A stretch of DNA of 64,000 nucleotides from Candidatus Methylomirabilota bacterium. Its GTDB lineage: Bacteria; Methylomirabilota; Methylomirabilia; Methylomirabilales; Methylomirabilaceae. The position numbers were made by a program, and so were the translations under genes. Below are positions 29,561 through 53,672 of this stretch, piece by piece. The notes below the pieces were generated by a model. That model did no database searches and was not told the origin of the DNA. It worked only from the letters and a program-made list of their open reading frames with translations. The stretch covers positions 21,792-85,791 of the forward strand of contig JACQQF010000054.1 in assembly GCA_016207095.1 (NCBI GenBank), read 5' to 3'. Positions within the stretch are counted from its first letter, which is position 1. Every line of letters begins with the position of its first letter.

Positions 29561-29603
29561 CCCCCCCAGAGGTTCTGCGTCGGCTGAAGCGCGTCGTTAG
29601 GCA

Positions 29604-29936
29604 TCAATCCTGCAAACTACTCGGGGGCTGTAATCCAAGCATCTCGAACAATTCACGCATCTGCCGCTTTTTCTCCGGTGTGTCAATTTTCGCGTCTGCG
29701 GCATACTCCGACCAGAACAGGACATCGCGATAATCTCGCTTCGCGACGCTCAGAAAGTACCGAAGTTTTTCTTCGTCGCCTTCGCTCAGACTAATGATCG
29801 CCAACTGCACACGCTCGCGTTCACGCTCGTACGGATGAACGCCGTACGTGTCGAGCAGGGTCAGGACGCGTTCGCTTTCAGCACTTGGAAAGACGGAGCT
29901 TATGGCGGCGACCACGTCTTCGCGGGACTGGGCCAT
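29604..29936 (-). CDS. hypothetical protein, integron cassette gene
   Basis: ORF between attC-like sites; start MAQSREDVVAA at 29936. Confidence 0.6.
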   Translation of the reverse strand: MAQSREDVVAAISSVFPSAESERVLTLLDTYGVHPYERERERVQLAIISLSEGDEEKLRYFLSVAKRDYRDVLFWSEYAADAKIDTPEKKRQMRELFEMLGLQPPSSLQD

Positions 29937-29945
29937 GCTTGGGAT

Positions 29946-30023
29946 GCCCAACGCTGGCGCTCAGCCGCCGCGACTATAGGGCCCTCCTCACGGGTCGCGG
30001 TCGGCCGAGGCGTATGGTTAGCC
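29946..30023 (-). repeat. attC-like recombination site (array 1)
   Basis: - strand GGCTAACCATACGCCTCGGCCGACCGCGACC...GTCGCGGCGGCTGAGCGCCAGCGTTGGGC, imperfect palindrome with RYYYAAC/GTTRRRY-like cores. Confidence 0.85.
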
Positions 30024-30308
30024 GGCCCAGAATTTCCACCATTTCGGCTTCCGCCTATATACCGCCTCATAAACCGCGTCATGCATATCCTTCAGAAGTA
30101 GTGTTTCATCATCCCGAAGTTGGTGACTAAAGTCTTCTTGGACTTCGATTATCGCATCCAGAAAGAGCGCCCAACCATCGGTCAAACCAGTAATACAACG
30201 AAAGCCATCGTGAAGAATCTTGGCCGAAGCATCAGCACCTCGTGTCCTTAAACCCGAAATCAGATTGCGGGCTGCGCTAAATAATTCTTCGTTGGACGAA
30301 AATGTCAT
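30018..30308 (-). CDS. hypothetical protein, cassette gene
   Basis: Start MTFSSNEELFSAARNLISG at 30308, after the attC core; stop within the next attC. Confidence 0.55.
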   Translation of the reverse strand: MTFSSNEELFSAARNLISGLRTRGADASAKILHDGFRCITGLTDGWALFLDAIIEVQEDFSHQLRDDETLLLKDMHDAVYEAVYRRKPKWWKFWAG

Positions 30309-30322
30309 TTGAAAGCACAGCC

Positions 30323-30376
30323 GGCTAACGAACAAGCTCAGCCGGCGCAGGCGGTCGGCTGCAGCGAGAGTTAGAT
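30323..30376 (-). repeat. attC-like site (array 1)
   Basis: - strand ATCTAACTCTCGCTGCAGCCGACC...GCCGGCTGAGCTTGTTCGTTAGCC. Confidence 0.85.
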
Positions 30377-30458
30377 GACAGGCCGTCACAACATGATGAA
30401 AGCTTAGTGCGTCCTTTCGGTGAAAGCACGAGGAGGAACCCGGGCCGTGGAGAACTCA

Positions 30459-31148
30459 TCAATCGCCGGTTGGGGCAATCCGGAATTCAAGCAACGCCTC
30501 GGTTGCCTCAAGCGTCTCGGAAAGGCGTGACGCGCTAGACCGATCGATGGTACGGAGCACCATACTGTGATGGCGTACACGGCCCTCACCATCGAAGCGA
30601 TAGCTGAAATTGGCAATGCTGAATCCATGGCGCTCGATTAGTGCGCGCAGAGCGTCTTCTGTCATGCCAGCAGTGCGCGCAAATCGCACATCAAAGTGGT
30701 AATAGGCCTGAGTAGGCATTCGGGCCTCAATCCAACGGAACAGGGATAACACCCCAAGCGTGAGGATCACCGATACAGCGAGGGGAAAATAAAAGCCTAT
30801 TCCAGCCAGGATGCCGATAGCGGCCGTTATCCAGATCGACGCGGCCGTAGTGAGGCCTCGGACAGAAAGACCCTCCTTGATGATTACGCCGGCCCCGAGA
30901 AAACCTATGCCGGTCATGATGCCCTGAGCCATTCTTGTGGGATCGAGCCGGACCGAATCAGCGGCCGCCCGGACCCAATGGGCTTCGTATACAGTAACAA
31001 GCATCAGAAGGCTGGAAGCGGTGCAGACCAACGCGTGTGTTCGGAAGCCCGCAGGCCTTCCATGGAACGAACGTTCATACCCGATCACAGCCCCTGCCAG
31101 CAGCGCAGCCAGCAATCGCAGCACCATCTCTATGTCATCAGTGGTCAA
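30459..31148 (-). CDS. MgtC/SapB family membrane protein, cassette gene
   Basis: GAVIGYERSFHGRPAGFRTHALVC and GIMTGIGFLGAGVIIKEGLSVRGLTTAASIWITAAIG. Confidence 0.93.
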   Translation of the reverse strand: MTTDDIEMVLRLLAALLAGAVIGYERSFHGRPAGFRTHALVCTASSLLMLVTVYEAHWVRAAADSVRLDPTRMAQGIMTGIGFLGAGVIIKEGLSVRGLTTAASIWITAAIGILAGIGFYFPLAVSVILTLGVLSLFRWIEARMPTQAYYHFDVRFARTAGMTEDALRALIERHGFSIANFSYRFDGEGRVRHHSMVLRTIDRSSASRLSETLEATEALLEFRIAPTGD

Positions 31149-31207
31149 ATTCGCGGTCTCCTCGAATCTACCTTACGCCCTGCGCTTCCCTTGTTCCTAA
31201 TCATGTC

Positions 31208-31313
31208 ATTTAACGTCCGTGCTCACCTGCGCCGAGCCGCAAAGCGGCGAGGGTACGCGGGCGAGGGCCGCAGGCCCGAAGCGAAGCGCGTCAGGTGCAG
31301 CACGTGGTTGGAC
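31208..31313 (-). repeat. attC-like site (array 1)
   Basis: - strand GTCCAACCACGTGCTGCACCTGACGC...GCGCAGGTGAGCACGGACGTTAAAT. Confidence 0.85.
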
Positions 31314-31359
31314 GGCCGTTACTTTGACATGTGGCGTGATCGGTCCAGTGATCTTGCAC

Positions 31360-32193
31360 CTAGTCCCTGCGCAGGAGATACAAGTCTTGATGGAGAGCCC
31401 CCTGTGTGCCCGCCGGAATCATGTCCTTGACAGTGTAGCCCTCACTCATGCGCTGACGCACATAGACTTCGGGGTGATAGGCACTGCACAGATTCATCCC
31501 ACTCGCTTCCTCATAACGGACGACCAAGTCCCCTGCCGTAAACGCCTCGCGCTCGGGTGTCGTGAGCCTGTCCCGGAAGCTTTCTCCATGCGTGGTGAAA
31601 AGAAAATAGCCACCCGATCGAATAATCCGCTTTAGTTCCTTTATCCACAACCCTTGAAGTGCCTCCGACATGTGGGTGAAAACAGAAATCGCGTATACAC
31701 AGTCAAACATCCCGTCCCTATAGGACAAAGGCGGGTATAAGGTATTGGTCGAGAACTGGGCGAAGGGCAAACTTTTGCGGCACCATTCGATGAGTCGCAC
31801 GTTGTAATCCACCCCATAGAGTTGCGGGCCTTGGATGGAACGCCAATGTCGCAGAACACGGCCACAGCCGCAGCCAAACTCGAGGACCGCCGTCAAGCTT
31901 TCAACCCTAACCCCATCCTTGTGCAGTGTCCCGAGTAGGATCTGAAACATCGACTTGCCGAAATGAAGAAACCAATCGACATCCGGCGAGCCAGCCACCA
32001 GGACCATCAAGTCGGAAGGCGGAAGCGGTAAACCCTCGGCCTGGGATCGACTCTTCGCACCAGAAGCGTTCGTGGCGAGCGCTTTTTCGTATGTCCGGTA
32101 GGCAATTTTGAGCAACCCCAACTTGCGCAAGGCTTCCAGAACAAAGTTCAACACGCCCAAGTTCTGCATGGTGGTAACGAGTCTACGCATCAT
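31360..32193 (-). CDS. class I SAM-dependent methyltransferase, cassette gene
   Basis: VLEFGCGCGRVLRHW motif I and IRSGGYFLFTTHGE. Confidence 0.85.
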   Translation of the reverse strand: MMRRLVTTMQNLGVLNFVLEALRKLGLLKIAYRTYEKALATNASGAKSRSQAEGLPLPPSDLMVLVAGSPDVDWFLHFGKSMFQILLGTLHKDGVRVESLTAVLEFGCGCGRVLRHWRSIQGPQLYGVDYNVRLIEWCRKSLPFAQFSTNTLYPPLSYRDGMFDCVYAISVFTHMSEALQGLWIKELKRIIRSGGYFLFTTHGESFRDRLTTPEREAFTAGDLVVRYEEASGMNLCSAYHPEVYVRQRMSEGYTVKDMIPAGTQGALHQDLYLLRRD

Positions 32194-32232
32194 GTGTCGC
32201 GGCGACTCCTCTAACCTTTAACTTCACTGACT

Positions 32233-32337
32233 GTCCAACGTCGCGGCTAACCCACGGCCTGCGGAGCAGCGAAACATAGCGAGTTCGCGGTGGTACCCGA
32301 CCCGAAGCGGGCCGGCGGGTTTAGTCGCTTGTCAGAC
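32233..32337 (-). repeat. attC-like site (array 1), divergent core
   Basis: Palindrome GTCTGACAAGCGACTAAACCCGCCGGCC / GTCCAACGTCGCGGCTAACCCACGGCC (reverse complement of the other end). Confidence 0.65.
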
Positions 32338-32346
32338 GGCGGCGGC

Positions 32347-32659: not shown

Positions 32660-32698
32660 CTCAGTGATAATCCACGATCTCAACGTCGTAGCCGTCGG
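32660..32698 (-). pseudogene. C-terminal remnant of a HigB/RelE-like toxin (DADGYDVEIVDYH*)
   Basis: Only about 13 codons, ending just upstream of higA; the rest is replaced by a fragment of the sugar dehydrogenase gene. Confidence 0.6.
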
Positions 32699-32825
32699 CG
32701 TCGGGGAGCGCGGCGCCTGGGCCTGGCCCTCCGCCCGCACCGGTGCGCCCGACACCAGGCAGGCCACGATCACGATCCTCACCGTCTCGCATGACATCTC
32801 CACCCCCTCCAAGGTTCGTCCGGGA
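32690..32825 (-). repeat. Duplicated 5' fragment of the PQQ-type sugar dehydrogenase gene (signal-peptide region)
   Basis: [35 protein letters not shown] versus [35 protein letters not shown] at about 29440-29575. Confidence 0.9.
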
Positions 32826-33161: not shown

Positions 33162-33264
33162 GCCTAACGCGCGCGCTCAGCGACGCGCCGCGTGGCGCGA
33201 CACGTGCGTTCTCTCAGCACGGGGCGTGACATGCGAGTGTGCCCGCTGCAGCGCGTGGTTGGGG
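33162..33264 (-). repeat. attC-like site (array 1)
   Basis: - strand CCCCAACCACGCGCTGCAGCGGGC...GCTGAGCGCGCGCGTTAGGC. Confidence 0.85.
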
Positions 33265-33285: not shown

Positions 33286-33666
33286 CTACACCACCATGTG
33301 TTCTTGAACCCACCTCAGGAATTGCTCCCTACTGCACTTCCCCGACGCCACCTCAATGACAACCCGTTCGGACTCATCAATACTGGCCCGCAGTTCATGC
33401 CCATTGAGGACGAGAAACGTCTCCATGGCTGCGTGGCCAACACGCTTGTTTCCGTCAATGAAGGGATGGTTCTGGATGATCGAGAAGCCGAGTGCCACTG
33501 CTTTCTCCGCCAACGTGGCGTAGAGATCACGACCTTCAAAGGTCATCCGTGGCTGAGCGACGACCGACTCAAGTGCCCCAAGATCTCGAACCGCAGCGGA
33601 GCCACCCGTCCGCTCAACGATCAGGCGATGGAGCGCCAATAGCTCGGCCAGCGTGAGGTAGCGCAC
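33286..33666 (-). CDS. type II TA death-on-curing (Doc/Fic) family toxin
   Basis: HPFIDGNKRVGHAAMETFL Fic motif; follows the antitoxin ORF with a 1-nt overlap. Confidence 0.92.
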   Translation of the reverse strand: MRYLTLAELLALHRLIVERTGGSAAVRDLGALESVVAQPRMTFEGRDLYATLAEKAVALGFSIIQNHPFIDGNKRVGHAAMETFLVLNGHELRASIDESERVVIEVASGKCSREQFLRWVQEHMVV

Positions 33667-33860
33667 TAGCTGAGCCGCCGGTAAAGCTCCCGATTCTTCT
33701 CTAGGACTCGCTTGGCAGCCTGCCGGAAGTCACCCTCGGGCCCAGCCAGCAGGTCCCGCACGGCGGCTCCGACCAGCTCTTCGACGGCTACGTTGAGGCG
33801 CCTGGCCTCCTCTGAGAGCCGCCTCTGCTGCTCATCGGTCATCTCAACAGAGAGTTTCAT
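33666..33860 (-). CDS. antitoxin partner of the Doc-like toxin
   Basis: MKLSVEMTDEQQRRLSEEARRLNVAVEELVGAAVRDLLAGPEGDFRQAAKRVLEKNRELYRRLS; directly upstream of the toxin. Confidence 0.85.
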   Translation of the reverse strand: MKLSVEMTDEQQRRLSEEARRLNVAVEELVGAAVRDLLAGPEGDFRQAAKRVLEKNRELYRRLS

Positions 33861-33920: not shown

Positions 33921-33983
33921 GCCCAACGGCATGCCGCTGAGCGGCTGTGCGTCAGCACAGTCCGTTCCTGCGGCGTGTTAGAC
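33921..33983 (-). repeat. attC-like site (array 1)
   Basis: - strand GTCTAACACGCCGCAGGAACGGAC...GCCGCTCAGCGGCATGCCGTTGGGC. Confidence 0.85.
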
Positions 33984-34328
33984 CGCCCTCTCAGGCAGCG
34001 TGAGAACGAGGAGAGAAGTCTCCGCGTCAGCCTCAAAGGCCTGCATCGCTGCTTGCTGGCTTCGCAGGAAGCGAAGGATGGCGTCCGACCCGGCATTGCC
34101 TACCGATAACCAGATGACCTTCGGGGGAGCGCCGTGGACGAAGCTGAGTTGGCGAAAGTCGTTGTCTTTGGAGACGATCGCATAGGCTTGCTGCCGAGCC
34201 CGTTCCCAGATCATCGCGTCCGTCGCAGCCCGCAGGCCAAGGGAGCGAACATGGGCGCTACCCGGATACTCGGATTCGAGAGCTTGGACGAGCCTGGGGC
34301 TCAGATTCTCGTCGAAAAGCAGCTTCAC
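33978..34328 (-). CDS. DUF5615 PIN-like protein (putative toxin)
   Basis: KLLFDENLSPRLVQALESEYPGSAHVRSLGL...AIVSKDNDFRQLS. Confidence 0.9.
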   Translation of the reverse strand: MKLLFDENLSPRLVQALESEYPGSAHVRSLGLRAATDAMIWERARQQAYAIVSKDNDFRQLSFVHGAPPKVIWLSVGNAGSDAILRFLRSQQAAMQAFEADAETSLLVLTLPERAV

Positions 34329-34558
34329 GCCACCGAGGAACCCGTGAGCCGGCGCTCGCGGGCGGCAGCGAATGCCAAGCAGGCGCGGATGTCTTCCGCC
34401 GTGAGGTCAGGAAAGTCGCCCAGGATCTGGGCTTCGGTCATGCCGCCGGCGAGGTATTCGAGGACGTCGTAGACGGTAATGCGGGTTCCCTTAATGCAGG
34501 GCTTTCCGCTCCGAACTCCGGGAGTGACGGTAATGCGATCTTGCCAGGTCATAGACAT
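34325..34558 (-). CDS. DUF433 protein (putative antitoxin)
   Basis: ITVTPGVRSGKPCIKGTRITVYDVLEYLAGGMTEAQILGDFPDLTAEDIRACLAFAA; overlaps the DUF5615 gene. Confidence 0.92.
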   Translation of the reverse strand: MSMTWQDRITVTPGVRSGKPCIKGTRITVYDVLEYLAGGMTEAQILGDFPDLTAEDIRACLAFAAARERRLTGSSVA

Positions 34559-34611
34559 AAGTGTAACCCTCCTTGGCGGACGATACAAGCACTCATTATC
34601 CCACGAGTGCG

Positions 34612-34673
34612 GGCTAACGCAAAGCTAACCGGCGCGCGCCATTTGCGCATCCGTGTTCAGCGCCGGGTTAGGT
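34612..34673 (-). repeat. attC-like site (array 1)
   Basis: - strand ACCTAACCCGGCGCTGAACACGG...GCGCGCCGGTTAGCTTTGCGTTAGCC. Confidence 0.85.
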
Positions 34674-34678: not shown

Positions 34679-35365
34679 TCAGTTCGGCGCATCTGTTTTG
34701 CCCTGATTGCATGACCAACAGAGCGTTTGAAGATTCTTCGGATCGTTGGTACCGCCTTCGGCGACCGGAATGATGTGGTCAACCTCCAGTGTTACTTCGG
34801 AGTTCTTCTTTGGGCTGGCACCACACTTCACGCACTGCTCGCGATCTCGCTTTAGGATGGCGTACCGAAGCTTCTGAGAAATTGGTGGACGGGCTGGTCG
34901 CTCGCGCTCGACTCTCCGAAGGAGATCGGCCTCAGTGAGTTCACCGTTCTGGACCTCAACAATTCGTTTCGCCAAAGGTCCGACGCCGCCAAAGAAAGCC
35001 CCATACGTCTTGACGCGAAAGGGATACTTCTTGCGTTCAAGAAAGGCCTCAAGTTGCCTGAGTGATGGGACAGAGTGTTGCTCTTTCCAGCACGCCCGAA
35101 ACGCCTCGACCATCGCTGCGGGATCAACTTTCTGTCCGCGTACGGCCCGGAATCCTGCCTCGTGAAGCGCCTTTGCCCAACTCCCAAACTGCCGCCGGAT
35201 GGTGTCAGATGTGACCAGGCGTTTCTTCCAGCCGTCGTACTCACGCATGCCGAAGGTTTCGCACTGGTGTAGCCGACCGTACTCCCTCAACGACGCGACG
35301 ATCTCCGCTCTCGACGCATGGGTTTTGACGCGATCGATTTCAAAGCGAAACGGTGCGTCGGTCAT
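34679..35365 (-). CDS. HNH endonuclease with homing-endonuclease-associated repeats, cassette gene
   Basis: QFGSWAKALHEAGFRAVRG-type repeats plus HNH core CVKCGASPKKNSEVTLEVDHIIPVAEGGTNDPKNLQTLCWSCNQGK. Confidence 0.9.
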   Translation of the reverse strand: MTDAPFRFEIDRVKTHASRAEIVASLREYGRLHQCETFGMREYDGWKKRLVTSDTIRRQFGSWAKALHEAGFRAVRGQKVDPAAMVEAFRACWKEQHSVPSLRQLEAFLERKKYPFRVKTYGAFFGGVGPLAKRIVEVQNGELTEADLLRRVERERPARPPISQKLRYAILKRDREQCVKCGASPKKNSEVTLEVDHIIPVAEGGTNDPKNLQTLCWSCNQGKTDAPN

Positions 35366-35370: not shown

Positions 35371-35450
35371 ACCTAACGCTCCCAGTAACTGGCGCGCTGT
35401 GTCGGCAGCGCGCCGTCGGCACAGCGTCCGCGTTAACTGGGCGGTTAGAG
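35371..35450 (-). repeat. attC-like site (array 1)
   Basis: - strand CTCTAACCGCCCAGTTAACGCGGAC...GCGCCAGTTACTGGGAGCGTTAGGT. Confidence 0.88.
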
Positions 35451-36108: not shown

Positions 36109-36215
36109 CTCTAACGGATGGCGGCTCAGCGGCCGTCGGGTCGGACGGTAGCAGGGGCTTGCCACCAGCGGTCAACAGGACCGTGGCCGCGGACCGCCGC
36201 AGCCGCGAGTTAGAC
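36109..36215 (-). repeat. attC-like site (array 1)
   Basis: - strand GTCTAACTCGCGGCTGCGGCGGTCC...GACGGCCGCTGAGCCGCCATCCGTTAGAG. Confidence 0.87.
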
Positions 36216-36705: not shown

Positions 36706-36778
36706 GTCTAACGCTCGCAGTCAGCGGCCGCGGGGCGAGCAGCGCGAGCCCCCGGTCCGCTGCAGTGCGATGTTGGAC
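36706..36778 (-). repeat. attC-like site (array 1)
   Basis: - strand GTCCAACATCGCACTGCAGCGGACC...GCGGCCGCTGACTGCGAGCGTTAGAC. Confidence 0.9.
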
Positions 36779-36804: not shown

Positions 36805-37326
36805 CTACGGCACCACGACGATCGACGTTTTGCTTCCTCGACAGATCTTCTCGGCGACTGTTCGCAGATGTTCCCGGTCTTTGGCCCCCACGGTTCCGCA
36901 GTGGATTATCAGCACGGTTCGATCACGATGCGCCAACGCAAGCATCGCCTGGCCTATCCCTTGCGTTAGCTTGGCGGCATGTCCAATATTGCCGAGGCAT
37001 TTCACTTCGATACCGATTGATCCTTGAGCGGGATGTTTGACGACGATGTCCAGGCGGCTGTTGCTGCCCAGCACGTTCACGTCGGGACCGCGATCTTCGC
37101 AACAGAAGGCCTTCCAGGCCGCATCTGAACGTCCGTTGCGTTCCTTCGTGTGAGAGGTCAGGCAAAAGGCGGCTGTGTCCTGCACGACCTCGGACATAAG
37201 CTTGACCAATCGGTCCCATACGGCGGCCTCAAAAGCAGATTCGCTTTCGTACGTCTTAGAGTAGCCCGATTCGGCAAGCCGCTTCACGAGAGCGACATTC
37301 AAATCTTCAATAGTCGCATAGGGCAT
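36805..37326 (-). CDS. hypothetical protein with possible D...ExK nuclease-like motif, first cassette of array 1
   Basis: SRLDIVVKHPAQGSIGIEVKCLG. Confidence 0.55.
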   Translation of the reverse strand: MPYATIEDLNVALVKRLAESGYSKTYESESAFEAAVWDRLVKLMSEVVQDTAAFCLTSHTKERNGRSDAAWKAFCCEDRGPDVNVLGSNSRLDIVVKHPAQGSIGIEVKCLGNIGHAAKLTQGIGQAMLALAHRDRTVLIIHCGTVGAKDREHLRTVAEKICRGSKTSIVVVP

Positions 37327-37345: not shown

Positions 37346-37420
37346 TGCCGTCTAACTATTAAGTGAGCGGCGGGAGGCCCCGGTTATTCTGGCGGGCTAT
37401 CCCCGACAGCTCGGATCACG
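37346..37420 (-). other. attI-like junction of integron 1
   Basis: GTTAGAC core (37350-37356 on the opposite strand) between the first cassette and the 3' end of intI remnant 1; TAACTATTAAGT shared with 53336ff. Confidence 0.55.
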
Positions 37421-37565
37421 GTTTTTGCATGTAAGTACCCGAAATATCGCTCCGTTCGCATACCCTGTCAAGCACTGTTTTGATTGCAATAGGCTGCCTG
37501 CTGGTCGGTCTATTGCGCTATTGGCCCGCAGCCTATCCCGTTCACAAACTACCCGTTCGTCCAGC

Positions 37566-38429
37566 CTAACTCAGTCGATCCGCAGGGCTGTAGACCCCAC
37601 GCCCACCCCGATTTAGAACATGGGTGTAGATCATGGTCGTGCTCACATCCCTGTGCCCCAACAGCTCCTGAACCGTTCGAATGTCATATCCATCCTCAAG
37701 GAGGTGGGTGGCGAAGGAGTGCCGCAAGGAGTGGGAACTGGCTGGCTTGGCGAGCGCTGCCCGACGGGCGGCGTCTTTGACAGCCTTCTGGACCACGGAC
37801 TCGTGCAGATGGTGCCTAGCGCATGCCGGTCAACCGGTCCATGTAATGCTTCGAGGCTGGGAAGACCCATTGCCACGCCCATTCCTTATCCGCGTTGGGG
37901 TACTTGCGTTGAAGGGCGTTCGGCAAAGCCACACGACCCAACCCCCGCTCCAGATCGCGCTGGTGCTGCCGTCTCACGAGATTGAGGTGCCTGGCAAGCG
38001 GCTCTTTTACCGCCGCGGGGAGCATCGTCAGGCGATCTTTGTTTCCTTTGCCCTCTCTCACGACAATCTGGTTACTGGTGAAGTCGAGATCCTTCACTCT
38101 GAGCCGCATGCATTCCATCAGACGAAGGCCGGCTCCGTAGAGCAGCGTCGCGATCATCCATTCGGCGCCGCCGAGACACCCAAGTAACGCCTTCACCTCT
38201 TGCCGGGTCAGAACGACAGGCAACCTGTGCGGCCTTTTGGCTCGAACGACGCCGTTCACGTACCCGATGTCTTTCCCCAAGACTTCTCGGTACAGAAACA
38301 GGAGGGCGTTCAGCGCCTGGTTTTGGGTCGAAGCGGCGACATGGGAATCGCTCGCCAGGCTCGATAAGAACCTTGCAATCTCGCCTTCGCCCATTTCTGC
38401 CGGATGGCGCTTGTTGTGGAAGAAGAAAG

Positions 38430-38431
<2 letters not shown>
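37566..38431 (-). pseudogene. intI: integron integrase (IntI) remnant 1: 5'-truncated and frameshifted
   Basis: FFHNKRHPAEMGEGEIARFLSSLA...[111 protein letters not shown]; one extra nt at about 37816 breaks the frame; N-terminus lost at the dnaE2 junction. Confidence 0.93.
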
Positions 38432-41552
<3,121 letters not shown>

Positions 41553-41692: not shown

Positions 41693-43135
41693 TTAGTCAA
41701 CTTTTCCATGAAGAAACCACCGCTGGCGATCCGGGTCATAAAAGACCCAGAGCATCTCGCCGTGCCGCGTCTCCACAAAGTAGTATTCGCGATGCACCTC
41801 CCGCATCCACCACCCACCGCTGACGATATGCGGCCCGTGGAGCGTGATAGAGGGGCGACCTGGAGTTGCCAGTGGAACCGGCTTGGCGAAAATCCGGCGC
41901 ACCAGGTTTCGCAGCATCACCTGCCGTGGCTTAGGGAGTACCACCTGCTCCAGCGGCTCCCACTTGAAGCTCGCCTCCGGGAGGTGCCCGTCTGTGAGTC
42001 GCGCCCGCACGACCGCCCCGTCGCCGAACGTGGCCCGAACGCGGGCCAGCGACCGGTTGGCCGCATCAAGATCGCGCCGGGACCGCTCGGCGAAGAGCCG
42101 GAGCTGTTCGGGCGTCGCCGGGACCCCGCTCGCCGTGAGTTCGATCTCGATCACTCCGGCAGGAAGCGCAGCCGCCTCCAGCCGCAGGCGGACGAGATCG
42201 AGCACTTGTACCGCGTCGAGCGTGGGAGCCGCGGGGCAGACGCGCTCGTCACGCCATCCCCTCCCGTCGAGCAGGAGGCGAAGCGTGAGTTCCGCGAGCG
42301 CCTCCCCTCGGGCAACGAGCGTCAGGAGCAGCGGATGGAGGAACCGCTTGACAAGGAAGAGCAGGCGCGTCGCGTTGGTCTCTGGTTGATCGAGGATGAG
42401 CGACTGTCGGACCGGCTCTTCGGCGTGGTGTGGCTGGAGCGGTGCCCACAGATCGCCGGATGCCGCTCGGTGGAAGCGATAGGCCTCCGACCCAAAGCGT
42501 TCGAAGAGCCCTCCGGCAGGAAGGGAGAGCAGCGCGCCGACAGTCGCCATCCCGAGCTTCGAGAGCGTGTCGCGGAGGTTCGGATCGAGGTCCAGGCGGT
42601 CGAGCCGAACCTGCTGCGCGGCAGCACGCTCCTGACCGGGGTTCTCGAAGACTACCGTTCCCTCGCGTGCGCTGGCCACGGCATAGGTGCCGAAGCGGGT
42701 GAACCCCACTACCACCGTCGCGCGGAAGCCCATGCTGCTGAGATCGGTGAAGATCGCGCGCGCCCATTCCTCGAGGGACGCATAGAGGCGACCCAGTCCT
42801 GCCCCGCTCAGCCAGAAAACGCCGGGTTCTTCTGGAGACGGTTCGACCTCGGGAGTGAAGCGCCCGAGTCGCTCCGTGAGTGTCGCGACCACTTCGGCGA
42901 TCTCGGCGGGCGGGACCACGCCGGCCCGCAACTCGGCCGTGAGCGAACAGCCGGCAGCATAGCGGAGGCCGGAGAGCACGCCGGCGCGACGCGCCGCCTC
43001 GTTCACCCAAAGGATAAGCCCCTGCGGCCTGTCCTCCGCCACCACGGCCACCGGGTGGGCCACCCATTCGGGATGACGCCGCAGCAAGAGCTGCAACGGA
43101 AACGCGGCGAGGCTAACGCAGGCCAGCCGGTCCAT
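41693..43135 (-). CDS. imuB: DNA polymerase Y family protein ImuB
   Basis: Y-family-like ORF MDRLACVSLAAFPLQLLLRRHPEWVAHPVAVVAEDRPQG; upstream of dnaE2. Confidence 0.9.
   Translation of the reverse strand: MDRLACVSLAAFPLQLLLRRHPEWVAHPVAVVAEDRPQGLILWVNEAARRAGVLSGLRYAAGCSLTAELRAGVVPPAEIAEVVATLTERLGRFTPEVEPSPEEPGVFWLSGAGLGRLYASLEEWARAIFTDLSSMGFRATVVVGFTRFGTYAVASAREGTVVFENPGQERAAAQQVRLDRLDLDPNLRDTLSKLGMATVGALLSLPAGGLFERFGSEAYRFHRAASGDLWAPLQPHHAEEPVRQSLILDQPETNATRLLFLVKRFLHPLLLTLVARGEALAELTLRLLLDGRGWRDERVCPAAPTLDAVQVLDLVRLRLEAAALPAGVIEIELTASGVPATPEQLRLFAERSRRDLDAANRSLARVRATFGDGAVVRARLTDGHLPEASFKWEPLEQVVLPKPRQVMLRNLVRRIFAKPVPLATPGRPSITLHGPHIVSGGWWMREVHREYYFVETRHGEMLWVFYDPDRQRWFLHGKVD
43112..43134 (+). 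repeat. 23-bp direct repeat, copy A (imuB start)
   Basis: GCTAACGCAGGCCAGCCGGTCCA identical to 44994-45016. Confidence 0.95.
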
Positions 43136-43565
43136 TTTTCTCCACCTTCGCTCAGTGAAGAGAACGCGCTGTTAGGCGAGTCCCTCGCGGAACATGGCTT
43201 TCAGTTCAACAAGCGCCATACCCTTGATTTCATCAGAACCGTTGTGAAGAAACCCGTTGCATCTTCCCCATCAACAGGATGGTTCCTTTTTTCTTTGCCG
43301 GGAGTAATTCTTACATCGTTTTGATCGTCCATCCCGCCAGGGTTTGGCCGCTTAAACCGTCACTAACCCCCTCCAGGCGCCGAAAACCCGGCCTTAAGGC
43401 GAGACGTAAGCACAGCGGGCACGTTGCTTGCCTATGAATGTACAGAACGTACAGGCCGCAGGTATTGGTCATCGCCTTGGCGCCGAGGCTGCCATCGGCC
43501 AGAGGTCGCTCGCGAGACGCCGGCTTTGAGCAGCGAAAACGATTCCTCGCCGACACGGCGCGGGG

Positions 43566-43964
43566 GTGGGACATGTATGCCAACCTCTATTCTGGGGGGA
43601 TTCACTGATGGCACGAAGACTCACACGGCACATCCTGCCGATGCCAACACGGCTCATCGGCAGACTTCTGGTGATTTGGATCGGGTGTTTTTCCGCTACC
43701 GCCTTTGCGGCGCCTGGCCGGACGTCGGTAGTTCCATCGCCACGTTCGACTCGAGAGGTCGGCCTGGCCCGAATCGTCTCGGTCGTGAAAGACAGGGTTC
43801 CGGATCGCGAATTATTGGAGAAGGCACAGGCGAAACTTCTCTCGTTGAGCGATCGACAAGTCCGCATCGCGGCGGCCCTCGCTGAGCGAATCGCAGAGGA
43901 GAGCCATGGGGCAGTCGCGGAAACAGCGTTCCTCCTGTTGACCGTTTTGATCATCTTCTCTTAG
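43566..43964 (+). CDS. hypothetical exported/membrane protein
   Basis: ORF with N-terminal hydrophobic segment and C-terminal TM; within the insertion between imuA and imuB. Confidence 0.5.
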   Translation: MGHVCQPLFWGDSLMARRLTRHILPMPTRLIGRLLVIWIGCFSATAFAAPGRTSVVPSPRSTREVGLARIVSVVKDRVPDRELLEKAQAKLLSLSDRQVRIAAALAERIAEESHGAVAETAFLLLTVLIIFS

Positions 43965-44007
43965 GTCTGCACCCCGGATTCCCGCTCAAGGGTTCTTTCC
44001 AGACCAC

Positions 44008-44982
44008 ATGGGCATGAAGATGAACAGACTGTCGCATGCGGTCAGACAAGGGTCCGTTCGAGTCGCGTCCCGCGTGGCGATGGTCGTGGTGAACACTGCC
44101 AGGCGGTCGGCGGATGTCGTGTATCACCTCGCGATCCTCGGCTTGAGCGCTGGGATCGCCCTGTCGCTCCCCGTCACCGCCGGCTTCCTTGCCAGAAATC
44201 TCCTCTACTACTGGTCTCGCATCGAAGACGAGAAGATCTTCTTGATCTTGGTTGAGATCGCGGTGGCGGTGATACTGGTCCTCCTGTTGAGTTCGGTCGG
44301 GAGGAGCTGGCGCGATGGACGATTCGCGAAGATGGCGAGACGCGCTGGGATGCTGTCCGCGGCATCCGGTGGAGAGTTCTTCGCCAGACGACGGATCAGA
44401 AGATTGAAGGTGCGGCAGGGCTTTGGCCGTGATCTCATGCTGATCGGATCGACCGGCGCCAGGACCTTCGTGGACCCGAAGGGAGACCTGTATAGCGTGC
44501 TACACAGTTGCCGTGAGGCGAAGATTATGCTCCTCGATCCCGAAAGTGAGGGTGCGAGGGCGCGCGCCAAGGCCATTCTCCACCCGGACGTGACAGAAGA
44601 GGTCTTTCGGGAGCAGATCAGGAAGAGCATCGCGTTCCTCAAGGCGCTCAAGGAAGTCCAAAAGACCATCAGACTCAAGCTCTATGCGGATCCACCGTTC
44701 CTCAAGCTGGCGATCCTCGGCGACTACATCTCGATGCAGTACTATCACGCGGGCATGGATGTTCAGATGATGCCCGAGTATTTGTTCAAGCACGATCAAA
44801 ACCCGGCGAGCCTGTATACCCCCCTGTATCAGTATTTCCTGGCCAGATGGAATGACCCGGACATCTCGGAATATGACTTCGAGACGGATGAGCTGGTCTT
44901 TCGGGACCCGGCCGGCAATGAGGTGAAGCGAGGACCGTTCAGCAGGTCTGGAGCCGGGCAGGCGAATGCCTCTCGCGCCTGA
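44008..44982 (+). CDS. hypothetical membrane protein
   Basis: Long ORF, two predicted N-terminal TM segments and a soluble C-terminal domain. Confidence 0.65.
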   Translation: MGMKMNRLSHAVRQGSVRVASRVAMVVVNTARRSADVVYHLAILGLSAGIALSLPVTAGFLARNLLYYWSRIEDEKIFLILVEIAVAVILVLLLSSVGRSWRDGRFAKMARRAGMLSAASGGEFFARRRIRRLKVRQGFGRDLMLIGSTGARTFVDPKGDLYSVLHSCREAKIMLLDPESEGARARAKAILHPDVTEEVFREQIRKSIAFLKALKEVQKTIRLKLYADPPFLKLAILGDYISMQYYHAGMDVQMMPEYLFKHDQNPASLYTPLYQYFLARWNDPDISEYDFETDELVFRDPAGNEVKRGPFSRSGAGQANASRA

Positions 44983-44993
44983 ACGCCAAGGCT

Positions 44994-45016
44994 GCTAACG
45001 CAGGCCAGCCGGTCCA
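44994..45016 (+). repeat. 23-bp direct repeat, copy B (imuA end)
   Basis: GCTAACGCAGGCCAGCCGGTCCA identical to 43112-43134. Confidence 0.95.
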
Positions 45017-45645
45017 CGGCAGACCTCCGCATGCGTCCATGTCGGGCCCCGGCGCTTGTCCTTGAGGACGGCGAGCCCACATGAAAACCGGTCATCGCAG
45101 ACTTTCTGCCTCTGCGCCTGGACCCGGAGGGAGACGAGCGAGCCCAGCGACGGTAGCTCGCCGCCCTTCTCCGTCAGGCAGAGAATCGCGGTCTGGTGCT
45201 TCTGTGCCAGTCCAGTCAGGCGCGTCTGGAGCGGGATGGGCACGTCGGCGCCGGCACCGAGGTCGAGCACGATCAGGCCGAAGGCGCCCGACCGCACGAG
45301 CTGGTCCGCGACGCGACCCACGGCCTTGGCATTAGCGACTCGGACGACCACCAGGGCGCCCAGATCAACCCCTCCCTCGGCCGCGTCTGGCGGGTAGAAG
45401 CCGCGTTCCTCCAGCGCGATCCAGGCGACCGGTTCACCCTGCCGCTGCGCCTCCAGCACCAGCCCGAAGGCGAGCGTGAGCGCCGCCGTCGCCCCCGCCG
45501 CCGAGATCTCCACCAACCGCCCGGCAATCTGCTCCAGCCCCCACGGCCGGCCTGATGGCTCAACAGCCCTTTGCCAGACGCGCACCGCCGCGACCACCCC
45601 TTGCAGCTTCCCCAACCCTTCTTTCCCATAATGTGTATTATACAT
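44995..45645 (-). CDS. imuA: ImuA-like (RecA/SulA-related) SOS mutagenesis protein; start codon uncertain
   Basis: Divergent RecA-like core with imuB/dnaE2 context; LGLIVLDLGAGADVPIPLQTRLTGLAQKHQTAILCLTEK. Confidence 0.75.
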   Translation of the reverse strand: MYNTHYGKEGLGKLQGVVAAVRVWQRAVEPSGRPWGLEQIAGRLVEISAAGATAALTLAFGLVLEAQRQGEPVAWIALEERGFYPPDAAEGGVDLGALVVVRVANAKAVGRVADQLVRSGAFGLIVLDLGAGADVPIPLQTRLTGLAQKHQTAILCLTEKGGELPSLGSLVSLRVQAQRQKVCDDRFSCGLAVLKDKRRGPTWTHAEVCRGPAGLR

Positions 45646-45654
45646 TTGACTAAT
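45635..45654 (-). promoter_or_regulatory. Candidate LexA box overlapping the imuA promoter
   Basis: ATTAGTCAAATGTATAATAC (- strand), 18/20 identical to the lexA upstream motif. Confidence 0.65.
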
Positions 45655-48440: not shown

Positions 48441-48500
48441 GCCTAACAGGCGGGCTCACCTGCGCCGCTCTGCGGCGTCAGCCGCGGCCCGAGGTTAGGC
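48441..48500 (-). repeat. attC-like site (array 2)
   Basis: - strand GCCTAACCTCGGGCCGCGGCTGACGCC...GGCGCAGGTGAGCCCGCCTGTTAGGC. Confidence 0.85.
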
Positions 48501-49102: not shown

Positions 49103-49189
49103 GCATAACGGCTCGCGATTGAGCCGCGGCGGAGTAGTCGATTTCTGAAATCTGCCGCACCCGCCGACGGCTCCAATCGCTTGTTAGAT
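49103..49189 (-). repeat. attC-like site (array 2)
   Basis: - strand ATCTAACAAGCGATTGGAGCCGTCGGCGG...CCGCCGCGGCTCAATCGCGAGCCGTTATGC. Confidence 0.85.
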
Positions 49190-49217
49190 GGTGCTCACTT
49201 CCTCGTACGGTGAGGCT

Positions 49218-49412
49218 ATGAAAGTAGCGTTTGATCTGCCGCCCGCGCAAGCCGAAAATCTTCGAGAAGAGGCCAAACGCCCTGGAATCGACCCGGCCGA
49301 CCTGGCTCGTGCCGCTGTGACTGACCTGCTGGCTACCCGCGACAAAGATTTCCGACCCGCCGCCGAACGCGTACTCCGGAAAAACGAAGAGCTGTACCGC
49401 CGACTCGCCTGA
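49218..49412 (+). CDS. orphan antitoxin, same family as 33666-33860
   Basis: MKVAFDLPPAQAENLREEAKRPGIDPADLARAAVTDLLATRDKDFRPAAERVLRKNEELYRRLA; shares the ...KNxELYRRL C-terminus. Confidence 0.82.
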   Translation: MKVAFDLPPAQAENLREEAKRPGIDPADLARAAVTDLLATRDKDFRPAAERVLRKNEELYRRLA

Positions 49413-49431: not shown

Positions 49432-50158
49432 GAAAGCCGTGGAACTCCACCGCCAGGACCATGGGCTCCTATGCTTCCAGGACCGACCTGAGCGTTTGAA
49501 GATCCCGCTCCACGAGAGGTGTCTGAAAAGGGGCTCCTTGAGGGCTGCGGGCAGCACCGTGTAGCGATCCCTGTTGCCCTTGCCAGCTCGGCGATGATCT
49601 GGTCCCAAGAGAAGTCGATATCCTTGACTCGGAGGCGGCAACGCTTCATCAGCCGCAATCCTGCCCCGTAGAGAAGCACGGCCATCAACTGCGGCGTGCT
49701 TTGCAGGCAGCCCAGGAGGCGCTTGACCTCCTCTTTGTGGTCAAGATGACGGGTAGCCTCCTTGGTCTCTTGGCGCGCACGACTCCCTGGATCAGGCCAA
49801 TCTCCTTCTCCAGGACTTGGTGGTAAAGAAACAGGAGAGCATTCAGCGCCTGGTTCTGGGTCGAGGCGCTCACGTGAGAGTCGCGTGCCAGGCTAGAGAG
49901 AAACTGGCCGATCTCAGTTTCTCCCATCTCTGATGGGTGTCGCTTATTGTGAAAGAGAGTGAAACGCTTGATCCACCCAACATACGCCTCCTCGGTCTTG
50001 TAGCTATAGTGGCGAGTGCGGATCGCCAGGCGCACTCGGTCAAGGAGCTTGGGTTTGGCCGGAGGCGGCGGCGGAGGGTTGACTCCGGCAAGTTTCCAAC
50101 TGCCAGCCGTCTGATGGGACGGGCGTTGGATGATCCCCCTTCCATTGAGATTTCCCAT
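49432..50158 (-). pseudogene. intI: integron integrase (IntI) remnant 2: intact N-terminus, frameshifts, C-terminus deleted
   Basis: PPAKPKLLDRVRLAIRTRHYSYKTEEAYVGWIKRFTLFHNKRHPSEMGETEIGQFLSSLARDSHVSASTQNQALNALLFLYHQVLEKEIG...; frameshifts at about 49737 and about 49590. Confidence 0.92.
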
Positions 50159-50199: not shown

Positions 50200-50955
50200 C
50201 TACTCGTACAGAGGGACGCCGCCTTCCGGTGAGGGAAAGCCATCGTTCCCCGCGAAGGCCCACAGGTACGCCTTGCTGAGGACCTTGCCGTTCGTCTCCC
50301 CGGAGAAGCTGTGGTCGCAGTCAGGCACGCCCCGCGCGTGTATGGCCCTGGCGCTCTTGGCCAGCGACGGCATCATCACGGCCAGGATGGCCGCTGCCGG
50401 GTCCTGCTCTCCGTACGCCACGTACACCTCACCCGTGTAGCGCCGCACGCCGCCCAGGAAGAACCAGTCCACGCTGTCATAGGCCGAGACGAGGAGAATC
50501 TTCGTGATCGGCGCAAAGACCGGCGCCACGGCGCCTGCGACGGAACCGCCAGCCGAGAACCCGGCGAGATGTACTTCGGGCTCTTTGGCGCCGCACAACT
50601 GCTCCGCGTGCTTCAGGCAGTGCTCCACCAACGCGGCCATGCTCTCCACATAAATCAGGCTCCAGCTCGCATCCCGGTACGAGTAGGGCTCGTTGGGGTA
50701 CTTGAGTTGGGCGTCCGGGAAGGGCGGGTTGAAGCTGACCAGGGTGGCGATGCCACGGGCCTGCAGGTGCTCGCCCAGCCGCACGTAGCGGTTGCCCGCC
50801 CCCTCCTTGACTTCACCCGCCCCCGGCGCCTGGATGAGGAGCTTGCCCGACGTGGTCGGGAACGCGATGAAGGGCGCCTCGTAGGGCACGGTCTGCCCCT
50901 GGTATCCCGTCGTCGTAAGCTGGAGGGATCCTGCTTCCATTGTCATGGTCATCAC
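50200..50955 (-). CDS. alpha/beta-hydrolase fold protein
   Basis: VHLAGFSAGGSVAG nucleophile elbow; overlaps the GNAT gene. Confidence 0.75.
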   Translation of the reverse strand: MMTMTMEAGSLQLTTTGYQGQTVPYEAPFIAFPTTSGKLLIQAPGAGEVKEGAGNRYVRLGEHLQARGIATLVSFNPPFPDAQLKYPNEPYSYRDASWSLIYVESMAALVEHCLKHAEQLCGAKEPEVHLAGFSAGGSVAGAVAPVFAPITKILLVSAYDSVDWFFLGGVRRYTGEVYVAYGEQDPAAAILAVMMPSLAKSARAIHARGVPDCDHSFSGETNGKVLSKAYLWAFAGNDGFPSPEGGVPLYE

Positions 50956-51971
50956 TCGCGAGCCTTCCGGACCCGCTCGCGCTCGCTGTCAACGTAGGCG
51001 AGCAGATCTTTCGCAAACGGGCTATCGATCTGGAGCAAAGATGGATCAAGGTCTTCAACGAGGAACTGCAAAAGCAGGGCGTCGCCGTCGCTGGCGAAAG
51101 CCGGCCCCAACCCGCTGAAGAAGCACCCCTCCTCCTCGGCGGCGCGGCACACCTCGGCCGTCCCCGCCTGGGCCAAGGGCAGTTCCAGGGAAAGGGCCTT
51201 CGCCCCACGCCCCTCGCACAGCTCGTGGCGGGCCCGGCGAACGGCAGCAGCCGTATCGGCCCCCACCCGGCGCACCCGGATGGTCCCCACCTGCACGGCC
51301 GCGTCGTACTCCACCGTGATCTCTCCCGTCCCCTCCGCCGGCGCGCCTTCTCGTAACTCGACAGGGATGCCGTACTGCCGGTAAATCCGAGCACTCATCT
51401 CACGGTGGTGTATGGCCACGTGGAGGATCTGCCTTGGCGGGTGTAGGTACTCGAAATAGATCACGAGGCTCATCCGCTGCGGCAGCGGTTCCGGCATGTT
51501 ATGGAAGGAACGCGGCCACAGCCCAAGCGCTACCCCGCACGGGTGCGCCCCGAAGTGCTCCTCGGCCTTCTGGGAGAAGAGGTGGTTGGTCACCGGATAC
51601 CCGACCAGGCCCGTCAGCCCGAGGCGGATTGCCTCCTCGCGCAGCAGCACCCGCATCTGTTCCATAAGGTGATGATGCCGGTGCTCCGGTCGCACGATGG
51701 CATCGCTCGACTCCGCGATCGCCTCCAGGTGGGGCCGTTCCAGGGCGTAATGCCCGACCACCTCGCCGGCCGAGTCCAGGGCGACGACGGAGACCAGCTT
51801 CCCGGCTTCGTTCAGGCGGATGATCTGCTCCGGGTCGTACAGGTCTCGCGGGTAATAGGTATCCCCGTACACCACTTCGACCAGCCGGGCCACGCCCGCC
51901 GCATCACCGGGGCATAAGCGCCGGATGGTGTGCCCGTTCGCGGTTAACTCCTGGGAAGATGGGTTGCTCAT
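50952..51971 (-). CDS. GNAT family N-acetyltransferase-like protein
   Basis: IRRLCPGDAAGVARLVEVVYGDTY ... IVRPEHRHHHLMEQMRVLLREEAIRLGLTGLVGYPVTNH; start set after the attC. Confidence 0.75.
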   Translation of the reverse strand: MSNPSSQELTANGHTIRRLCPGDAAGVARLVEVVYGDTYYPRDLYDPEQIIRLNEAGKLVSVVALDSAGEVVGHYALERPHLEAIAESSDAIVRPEHRHHHLMEQMRVLLREEAIRLGLTGLVGYPVTNHLFSQKAEEHFGAHPCGVALGLWPRSFHNMPEPLPQRMSLVIYFEYLHPPRQILHVAIHHREMSARIYRQYGIPVELREGAPAEGTGEITVEYDAAVQVGTIRVRRVGADTAAAVRRARHELCEGRGAKALSLELPLAQAGTAEVCRAAEEEGCFFSGLGPAFASDGDALLLQFLVEDLDPSLLQIDSPFAKDLLAYVDSERERVRKARE

Positions 51972-52024
51972 GGACGGAGCCTCTCTCTGCTCTCCCGCCA
52001 TTCCCTCTCGAATCGAGATCGGGC

Positions 52025-52096
52025 GGTTAACGGGTTGGTGATGAGCGGCGCGCCTCAGCAGTTGCACTGCCAATCCGCTCCAACCGGTGGTTAGGC
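52025..52096 (-). repeat. attC-like site (array 3)
   Basis: - strand GCCTAACCACCGGTTGGAGCGGATTGGC...GCGCGCCGCTCATCACCAACCCGTTAACC. Confidence 0.85.
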
Positions 52097-52097
52097 T

Positions 52098-52334
52098 TCA
52101 TAACGCATCCCGACCCTCAGGCTTAACGTCCCTCACCTTGGACATGGCGCGCTCGAATTTACGGCGACTCCCCCGCTTGGCACGCTCTTCCAAGTACTCG
52201 ACCGTCATCAGCGCCGACAACTTCTCCGCCAGCGCCGTGGCGATGAGTTGATTGATCGACACGTCTTCTCTCTTGGCCAACTCCCGAACACGCTTATGAA
52301 GCGATTCCGGGAGGCGCAGACTAATCGTGCTCAT
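52098..52334 (-). CDS. ribbon-helix-helix/CopG-type antitoxin
   Basis: MSTISLRLPESLHKRVRELAKREDVSINQLIATALAEKLSAL. Confidence 0.88.
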   Translation of the reverse strand: MSTISLRLPESLHKRVRELAKREDVSINQLIATALAEKLSALMTVEYLEERAKRGSRRKFERAMSKVRDVKPEGRDAL

Positions 52335-52756
52335 GGCATGCCTCCTATCACTCGTAGAAACTCCCTTGGTGTTACCACGCGGATGCCAAACCGCTCCGAC
52401 CCTGAAAAATCCCGTATGTTATGGGTCACGATGAAATCACACCCGGCCTCCACTGCCAGCTCAAGAACATGATCATCTTGCGGATCCTTCAGGAACGGCC
52501 GCCATAAAAAATGAATTATGTGCTTGCGAGCCACACTGCAGATGTAGTCGAGAATATCGTCAAGGTCGGCGGACGCAAGCCCGATCTCTCGTACGATCCG
52601 CTTGGCCGCGTCTTCGTACTCCACGATGAGTGGGACCGAGATGTTGATCTCAAAATTGCCGCGATCGAGCAGCGTGAACAGCCTATAGGATGCGCCCCGG
52701 CGGGAGCGCAAAGCGGAAATGAAAACGTTGGTGTCGATGACAATCTGCCGGATCAT
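52331..52756 (-). CDS. PIN-domain toxin
   Basis: IVIDTNVFISALRSRRGASYRLFTLL and GCDFIVTHNIRDF; precedes and overlaps the antitoxin. Confidence 0.9.
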   Translation of the reverse strand: MIRQIVIDTNVFISALRSRRGASYRLFTLLDRGNFEINISVPLIVEYEDAAKRIVREIGLASADLDDILDYICSVARKHIIHFLWRPFLKDPQDDHVLELAVEAGCDFIVTHNIRDFSGSERFGIRVVTPREFLRVIGGMP

Positions 52757-52759
52757 GAC

Positions 52760-52777
52760 GGTATCATATACGATACC
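52760..52777. promoter_or_regulatory. Candidate operator palindrome of the PIN/RHH module
   Basis: GGTATCATATACGATACC, perfect 6-bp arms just upstream of the PIN start codon. Confidence 0.5.
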
Positions 52778-52810
52778 ATTCTTTCGGTCAAGTCACCCCC
52801 CGAAATGCAA

Positions 52811-52906
52811 GCCTAACTTTTGAGGTAACCGGCCGCCGGAGCGCGAAGCGCGGAGGGAACCTGCAAGCGCAGCTTGCAGGCGGTCCGGTTGACCGAGAGG
52901 TTATGC
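52811..52906 (-). repeat. attC-like site (array 3)
   Basis: - strand GCATAACCTCTCGGTCAACCGGACCGCC...CCGGCGGCCGGTTACCTCAAAAGTTAGGC. Confidence 0.87.
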
Positions 52907-53317
52907 ATTGGGATTGCTTACTCGATTGATGAACTCGAAGAGCCAAGTGCCTGCCGCCAACGAGCCCAGGTGCCAAAAGATGTTTACAGGCTGAAACGGT
53001 ACGGCGTCAATTTGCTTGAATAACCCAGCGACACCAAAGCAAGAAAGAATGATGGCCACAGCCGCGAAAGGAATGCTGGAAAGAAAATGCGCTGAGACGT
53101 AGACCAGCAACTCATAGAGGACAAGCAGGGCTATTGTTACCAAGAGCATTGTGACGACAACTTTCGCTCCAAAAACGAAATTGCCCGACAGGAAAGTGGC
53201 GCTTTCAAGAACTCTGTCGTGCACGTGAGAAACGTCGAAATCCACGAAATACGCTAACCAGAACAGTGGAATTATCAAGAAGCTGCTGCTCTTCTTGATG
53301 GTTTCAAAGTGCTCCAT
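52901..53317 (-). CDS. hypothetical membrane protein, first cassette of array 3
   Basis: Multi-TM ORF with stop codon inside the attC. Confidence 0.6.
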   Translation of the reverse strand: MEHFETIKKSSSFLIIPLFWLAYFVDFDVSHVHDRVLESATFLSGNFVFGAKVVVTMLLVTIALLVLYELLVYVSAHFLSSIPFAAVAIILSCFGVAGLFKQIDAVPFQPVNIFWHLGSLAAGTWLFEFINRVSNPNA

Positions 53318-53329
53318 GCGTCCTCCTAA

Positions 53330-53400
53330 GATGCATAACTATTGAGTATACTGGTCAATATAGCCCAGGCTTACGGCAGTACAGCACGGATACTGAGCTC
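53330..53400 (-). other. attI-like junction of integron 3
   Basis: GTTATGC core (53333-53339 on the opposite strand) followed by TAACTATTGAGT, matching the attI-like junction at 37350. Confidence 0.55.
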
Positions 53401-53499
53401 TTGATGCCGACGGCGATTGTGGTGCGATTTCCATACCTTACCCGGAATACTTTAAGCCCCTAGACCGATGAAACACTGCGACTCTGGCAGTATAGCACC

Positions 53500-53672
53500 T
53501 TAGGTGGCGCGGCCATCAGGAAGAAGGGCCAGGCCATCGACCGGGCTACGAACGCCGCGCCCTCCACGGTTCAACGCATGAGTGTAGATCATGGTGGTGC
53601 TCACATCTTTGTGCCCCAAGAGCGCTTGAACTGTCCTGATGTCGTAGCCGTCCTCGAGCTCAACCTTCACTC
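53500..53672 (-). pseudogene. intI: integron integrase (IntI) remnant 3: C-terminal fragment only
   Basis: [52 protein letters not shown], parallel to the C-terminus of remnant 1. Confidence 0.9.

Follow-up and report, generated by a model that had tools for sequence, protein, structure and literature searches.

The 64,000-nucleotide stretch of DNA analyzed here (the window; positions 21,792 to 85,791 of contig JACQQF010000054.1, GenBank assembly GCA_016207095.1, from a Candidatus Methylomirabilota bacterium) raises the question of how fragments of integron integrase (IntI) genes and runs of imperfect palindromes came to lie in a locus that contains lexA, imuA, imuB, and the error-prone DNA polymerase gene dnaE2. 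The window is on contig 27 of a 2.9-Mb genome (G000; 103 contigs, 94.9% complete); among named relatives, the dnaE2 of "Candidatus Methylomirabilis oxygeniifera" is nearest to its own (84%), and the genus would, by inference, be Methylomirabilis (NC10). It is likely that the region lexA...imuA-imuB-dnaE2 holds at least two, probably three, decayed sedentary chromosomal integrons, the integrase of which was once co-transcribed with the SOS mutasome. The integron origin, the loss of integrase function, and the stranding of the cassettes had been recognized in an initial annotation of the same DNA and are borne out by attC covariance models, by scores with the IntI profile TIGR02249, and by the logic of the arrays; to these the present analysis adds the SOS operon context, the reverse orientation of intI, attI sites, and repeated dnaE2-intI scars in congeners. 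Related genomes are denoted below by G numbers and contigs of the window's own genome by C numbers; the features are collected in Table 1.

Integrase remnants, attC sites, and cassettes

Read along the minus strand, the order of features is lexA, intI remnant 3, attI, array 3, a two-gene pair, remnant 2, array 2, imuA, an insertion, imuB, dnaE2, remnant 1, attI, and array 1. All three intI copies are broken. The initial annotation had reported three IntI fragments, and three remnants do exist, but both of the peptides that it quoted come from a single one of them (37.57-38.43 kb), read in two frames. XerA, XerC, XerD, and related models score the two pieces of remnant 1 at 73 and 89 bits or less, far below the TIGR02249 scores in Table 1, and the best score of remnants 2 and 3 is likewise with TIGR02249; the remnants are thus matched best by IntI, not by XerC/D or phage integrase profiles. 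The intact orthologue in congener G013 matches the IntI of V. cholerae (2a3v) with E 1.8e-94 over 314 residues, including the IntI-specific segment, versus 1.7e-34 for XerA. No match in the 94.9% complete assembly passes the TIGR02249 cut-off, and because a complete IntI was not found the locus is described as an integron remnant and not as an active integron. Remnant 1 differs from the G013 IntI by nonsynonymous divergences (dN) of 0.18 and 0.09, the Nei-Gojobori synonymous divergence (dS) being saturated, and this small amino-acid divergence suggests that its decay is recent.

The palindromes were compared with two attC covariance models, R1, which was built only from 18 attC sites in plasmid-borne class 1 integron cassettes, and R2, which was built from 28 sites found by R1 in other genomes of the phylum, none of them from the window. 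The alignments used the first 30 and last 30 bases of each site, as full loops misaligned some sites, and the E-values are rough, the calibration having been short. With its filters off, R1 lost long-loop attC sites that its default mode caught, and R1 alone was therefore not used for calling absences. R2 recovers all 14 palindromes of the initial annotation on the minus strand at the positions given there (E 1.9e-12 to 0.012), confined to 23 kb, and R1 recovers eight of them at E ≤ 1, seven at E ≤ 0.02 (36706, 52811, 29946, 33162, 48441, 31208, and 30323) and 49103 at E 0.9. Up to E 10, the only other R1 match in the window is the complement of 48441, and the further R2 matches in the 64 kb are two attC sites on the opposite strand and a weak attC-like match at 43111-43177 (E 0.33) that was treated as chance. 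The R/L box pairs of the R2 training set covary, with 60 cells changed on both sides compared with 21.5 ± 3.6 in shuffles, and the covariation vanishes when the partners are slid. A simple consensus scan was too strict, recovering 7 of the 14 sites, and an Rfam scan of the window found nothing but two tRNAs. Folding of the bottom strand, a check proposed with the initial annotation, is clearly better than in shuffles for about half of the sites but not for 32233, 52025, and 30323, and from the poor folds some sites look weakened. R2 gives 30 matches over the whole genome; about 17 are on contigs other than the window's, so that the window has roughly half of the genome's integron sites. The attC matches beyond the window, together with an intI remnant and scars, are found on contigs C18, C74, C89, C97, C98, C99, and C10.

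If cassettes were inserted by IntI, each cassette start (TTRRRY after the cut G) should derive from the cassette's own circular attC, and R' should therefore pair better with the R'' of its own cassette than with that of the same site. In array 1, R' agrees with the own-cassette R'' at 64 of 70 positions, as against 51 of 70 for the same-site comparison; for the three arrays together, the own-cassette match is 84 of 91, the permuted mean is 68.9, and none of 100,000 permutations is as good. These comparisons confirm that the start of a cassette and its own attC end agree in the way expected from recombination by IntI. Stop codons lie at or within several attC sites, as annotated initially, for example in the gene that ends at 36210 inside 36109-36215. 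The cassettes include several toxin-antitoxin-like pairs, and contents other than those in Table 1 are HigA, a methyltransferase, and unknowns. Toxin-antitoxin pairs are usual in sedentary arrays and can hold arrays in place. The cassettes had been considered immobilized, and this stands in cis, but an IntI acting in trans could still mobilize their attC sites. At the distal end of array 1, the final cassette stops at an attC half-site (GCCTAAC, 29602), which is fused to the leader of a glucose/sorbosone dehydrogenase gene. A second copy (92%) of the initial 119 bp of that gene (29450-29568) is found inside array 1 at 32693-32811, an arrangement that would result if cassettes had gone in between the two copies. 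A small gene at 49188-49412 (plus strand) resembles the partner gene of the Fic cassette (33666-33860), has the opposite orientation, and abuts the R'' end of attC 49103-49189.

Motifs resembling attI are conserved 3' of intI across species for arrays 1 and 3 and are candidate sites by sequence; GCTCACTTAATAGTTAGAC lies between remnant 1 and cassette 1, and for array 2 no attI-like site was found. The intI remnants and attC sites are all on the minus strand, with intI pointing toward attI and the cassettes, and the arrangement in G013 is alike. As judged from this layout, the orientation is the atypical, reverse (Treponema-type) one, in which intI is co-directional with the cassettes and attI is 3' of intI. 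A scan for a cassette promoter (Pc) gave one promoter-like site at 37443-37471 (minus strand), where 0.6 is expected by chance.

Table 1. Positions of features in the SOS-integron locus (window coordinates)
Feature	Position	Strand	Basis
intI remnant 1, N terminus deleted, one frameshift near 37815	37572..38427	-	TIGR02249 265.8 bits (profile 31-230) + 124.5 bits (242-315)
intI remnant 2, profile 1-152, then out of frame	49560..50157	-	TIGR02249 130.1 bits for 1-105
intI remnant 3, C-terminal 43 aa, about 100 bp after lexA	53530..53658	-	TIGR02249 67.9 bits, profile 273-315
attI-like site of array 1, GCTCACTTAATAGTTAGAC	37350..37368	-	Same motif 3' of intI in G013, G010, G007, and G013 contig 20
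attI-like site of array 3, GACCAGTATACTCAATAGTTATGC	53333..53356	-	Similar sites after intI remnants in G007, G003, G002, G006
attC, array 1	36706..36778	-	R1 E 1.2e-6, R2 E 1.9e-12
attC, array 1	36109..36215	-	R2 E 2.3e-4
attC, array 1	35371..35450	-	R2 E 0.012; R'' pairs perfectly with start of own cassette
attC, array 1	34612..34673	-	R2 E 7.5e-6
attC, array 1	33921..33983	-	R2 E 8.5e-6
attC, array 1	33162..33264	-	R1 E 0.008, R2 E 3.7e-8
attC, array 1, weak fold	32233..32337	-	R2 E 2.8e-5; fold z -0.4
attC, array 1	31208..31313	-	R2 E 6.3e-8
attC, array 1	30323..30376	-	R2 E 8e-9
attC, array 1	29946..30023	-	R1 E 1e-4, R2 E 1e-10
Truncated attC half-site (R'' GCCTAAC), distal end of array 1	29577..29602	-	Sequence; 6/7 match to own cassette start
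attC, array 2	48441..48500	-	R2 E 2.8e-5
attC, array 2	49103..49189	-	R2 E 2.6e-8
attC, array 3	52025..52096	-	R2 E 1.6e-5
attC, array 3	52811..52906	-	R1 E 3.2e-6, R2 E 2.9e-9
Cassette 1 gene, unknown	36805..37326	-	Open reading frame between attI and attC
Cassette gene, HNH endonuclease	34679..35365	-	PF01844
Cassette with DUF433-DUF5615 (PIN-like) pair	33978..34588	-	PF04255, PF18480
Cassette with Fic/Doc gene and small partner gene	33286..33860	-	PF02661
Cassette gene, MgtC family	30459..31148	-	PF02308
Cassette with PIN toxin-like and HicB/RHH antitoxin-like genes	52098..52756	-	PF13470, PF05534
dnaE2 (error-prone DNA polymerase), intact	38430..41552	-	PRK05672 1359 bits
imuB	41693..43135	-	PF00817; 63-67% identity to congener imuB
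imuA	44995..45645	-	PF00154, weak NF033429 ImuA; synteny
lexA	53756..54349	-	TIGR00498 201 bits
Putative SOS operator TTAGTCATAAGTATA upstream of lexA	54405..54419	-	Motif search
Putative SOS operator TTAGTCAAATGTATA at imuA	45639..45653	-	Motif search

Linkage of intI to the imuA-imuB-dnaE2 operon

The IntI sequence of remnant 1 starts 7 nucleotides or less from the end of dnaE2 (38430). Comparison with related genomes, as had been proposed initially, finds the same dnaE2-intI locus in congeners and an intact form in G013, where lexA...imuA-imuB-dnaE2-intI is complete and intI is open over its full length; at the junction, the TGA stop of dnaE2 overlaps an ATG, followed by GAAAGGAGATCGCCATG. 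In G057, the dnaE2 of which is 81% identical, the order is imuA-imuB-dnaE2-intI, with AAAAGGAGGTCTCCATG about 20 nucleotides past the dnaE2 stop and intI open to the end of the contig, and IntI C-terminal remnants lie behind the dnaE2 stop in G005, G006, and G010. Thus, intI or a remnant of it follows dnaE2 in all five congeners with an assembled dnaE2 3' end (the window's genome, G013, G005, G006, and G010). Outside these, G035 has a distant dnaE2 (47%), and the intI behind that gene has an internal deletion. Among 80 named dnaE2 loci, none has an IntI match (70 of the 80 had more than 1 kb of downstream sequence), and the linkage is therefore not general. Two genomes of family f5 in the same order, G034 (L128) and G028 (L131), have an intact intI on the strand of lexA, 1.0-1.5 kb downstream of that gene and separated from it by nucleotidyltransferase-like genes; these were not counted as operon members.

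An operator motif (TTAGTCNNANGTATA or a near match) was derived from the lexA and imuA promoters of six genomes. The exact pattern has 16 matches in 15 genomes, and the reversed control has none; 13 of the 16 are at lexA or imuA, and G006 and G008 each have one upstream of a free-standing intI gene. The remaining match is in G003, on an integron contig (192; L178 1501-3014), where the SOS-like motif lies ahead of a family-B DNA polymerase gene with attC sites and an intI remnant next to it. The distribution of the motif supports, but does not prove, control of intI by LexA, both at the promoter of intI itself and by way of the imu operon.

The sequence relationships are consistent with a mechanism in which each unit consisted of intI, then attI, and then a cassette array on a single strand, and in which IntI would recombine folded attC bottom strands with the adjacent attI, placing new cassettes next to intI. 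In the ancestral state, which would be that still seen in G013 and G057, intI was presumably the last gene of the SOS operon, at or just past the dnaE2 stop, so that relief of LexA repression at the imuA promoter on DNA damage would lead to expression of the mutasome and the integrase together, with the transcript running on past attI into the cassettes. In the window, activity would have been lost through a 5' deletion and a frameshift in remnant 1, frameshifts and truncation in remnant 2, and loss of all but 43 residues in remnant 3, leaving clusters of attC sites that lack a working integrase.

Fragments of the 3' terminus of dnaE2 are also carried by congeners, most of them followed by intI fragments and attC sites. 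Such scars are present in G006, G007 (two units in a row), G008, contig 20 of G013, and G014, and the window's genome has two on contig C98. It looks as though new dnaE2'-intI-array segments arrived repeatedly, presumably by recombination at the end of dnaE2, and displaced older platforms. The series from intact (G013 and G057) through deleted (the window, G005, and G010) to nearly erased (G006) would be a natural record of platform loss and replacement. Among dnaE2-intI deletions in different species (L123, L126, L138, L139, L141, and L142), several share a downstream breakpoint in intI (TFRHSFATH), which is paired with at least three different upstream breakpoints. A broader proposal is evenly balanced between acceptance and rejection: that in Methylomirabilis and some relatives intI is a structural member of an imuA-imuB-dnaE2-intI operon, that its orientation lets one LexA-controlled transcript serve error-prone synthesis, cassette recombination, and read-through expression of cassettes, and that platforms have been replaced repeatedly, each leaving a scar of dnaE2 3' end and intI.

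Weighing of alternative explanations

Two platforms are proven at the level of profile coordinates, because remnant 1 overlaps both remnant 2 and remnant 3 in the IntI profile; a third, also proposed initially, is probable but not proven, because remnants 2 (1-152) and 3 (273-315) share no profile region. This lack of overlap would suit a history of only one or two platforms, in which the three remnants are pieces of fewer integrons split by duplication or rearrangement, and so would the 74% identity of remnants 1 and 3 over 129 nucleotides. Such a history is doubtful, however, given that remnant 1 overlaps both of the others and that remnants 1 and 2 are on different branches of the IntI tree (modest support), the nearest sequence to the former being the dnaE2-linked IntI of G013 and to the latter those of G008 and G057. 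Array 3 comes with a separate attI-like site, of a second type, the best match of remnant 3 is the intI remnant on contig C74 of the same genome, and a C-terminal piece ahead of an N-terminal piece on one strand would need an extra rearrangement. If the remnants were instead Xer or phage-type recombinases among chance palindromes, with no integron, the matches of Xer models would be accounted for by the relatedness of IntI and Xer, but this explanation has a negligible probability and is refuted by the 265.8 versus ≤73 bits for remnant 1, the 14 attC sites on one strand in 23 kb, and the cassette logic.

Several observations weigh against an SOS-linked multi-integron locus. Because lexA and imuA promoters were the source of the operator motif, only its two occurrences at intI are an independent test. 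Most intI genes on the Rokubacteria side of the class are unlinked to dnaE2 and have other neighbors. The window's imu operon may itself be disturbed, since imuA and imuB, which overlap in congeners, are split in the window by a 1.86-kb insertion (43112-45016) that carries oppositely oriented genes and has a 23-bp direct repeat (TGGACCGGCTGGCCTGCGTTAGC) on either side; G008 and G010 have homologues of the main inserted gene at other places. The assembly is fragmented and about 95% complete, and the frameshift in remnant 1 is a single base. These last points are what would be expected if a chimeric contig or frameshift errors in a metagenome-type assembly of 103 contigs made intact integrons look broken, but an artifact of this kind is highly improbable, in that remnants with the same neighbors recur in congeners, including the single-contig G006 (2.75 Mb), and the N-terminal deletion of remnant 1 and the truncation of remnant 3 exceed single-base errors. 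It is also rather unlikely that these are ordinary decayed chromosomal integrons that lie beside dnaE2 by chance, at an insertion hotspot with no regulatory meaning. The restriction of the linkage to the genus Methylomirabilis plus G057 and G035, with other neighbors elsewhere in the class, would fit such a hotspot, as would the recurrence of dnaE2 3' fragments beside intI fragments, but in G013 and G057 the ribosome-binding site of intI is within about 20 nucleotides of the dnaE2 stop, leaving no space for a promoter, and the putative operator of lexA and imuA recurs at the free-standing intI genes of G006 and G008.

Relation to known systems

In the chromosomal integrons of Treponema (T. denticola), intI is transcribed toward attI, and gain and loss have occurred genus-wide (PMC3607928). 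The window's integrons are alike in that intI points toward attI in the direction of the cassettes; they differ in that intI follows dnaE2 and the integrases are broken, whereas no link to lexA or dnaE2 was found in the part of that report considered. The integrases of class 1 and Vibrio integrons are under SOS control by a LexA box in the promoter of intI itself (PMC3108266). An operator-like motif would likewise tie IntI to LexA here, as predicted from sequence, but the link would be mainly positional, through the end of the imuA-imuB-dnaE2 operon; dnaE2, imuB, and operons are not mentioned in PMC3108266, the main survey of SOS control of intI. The window's arrays share with clusters of attC sites without a working integrase (CALIN; the term as in PMC7923331) the lack of a functional intI but differ in having recognizable intI remnants beside them and attI-like sites beside two of them. 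The gene order and apparent LexA control are those of the imuA-imuB-dnaE2 mutasome operon, but with intI or a remnant as a fourth gene and with cassettes or arrays in the lexA-imuA interval. Integron-like elements in Pseudomonas rulB are also recombinase-bearing and tied to an SOS mutagenesis polymerase gene, but they insert into rulB and have three predicted recombinases of another kind (PMC4542609), whereas the window has an intact dnaE2 and true IntI sequences with attC arrays. In the open-access literature, no relevant report was found of integrons in Methylomirabilis or Rokubacteria or of integrons with dnaE2. The integron is of a known kind, and the apparent membership of intI in the imu operon, with intI in the reverse orientation, is a variant for which that literature gave no report.

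The known cases of SOS control of integrons, most of them in Proteobacteria, involve a LexA box in the intI promoter. In the present uncultured methane-oxidizing lineage, an error-prone polymerase and cassette shuffling appear to have been joined in one operon, so that damage to DNA could have set off mutation and the shuffling of genes at the same time.

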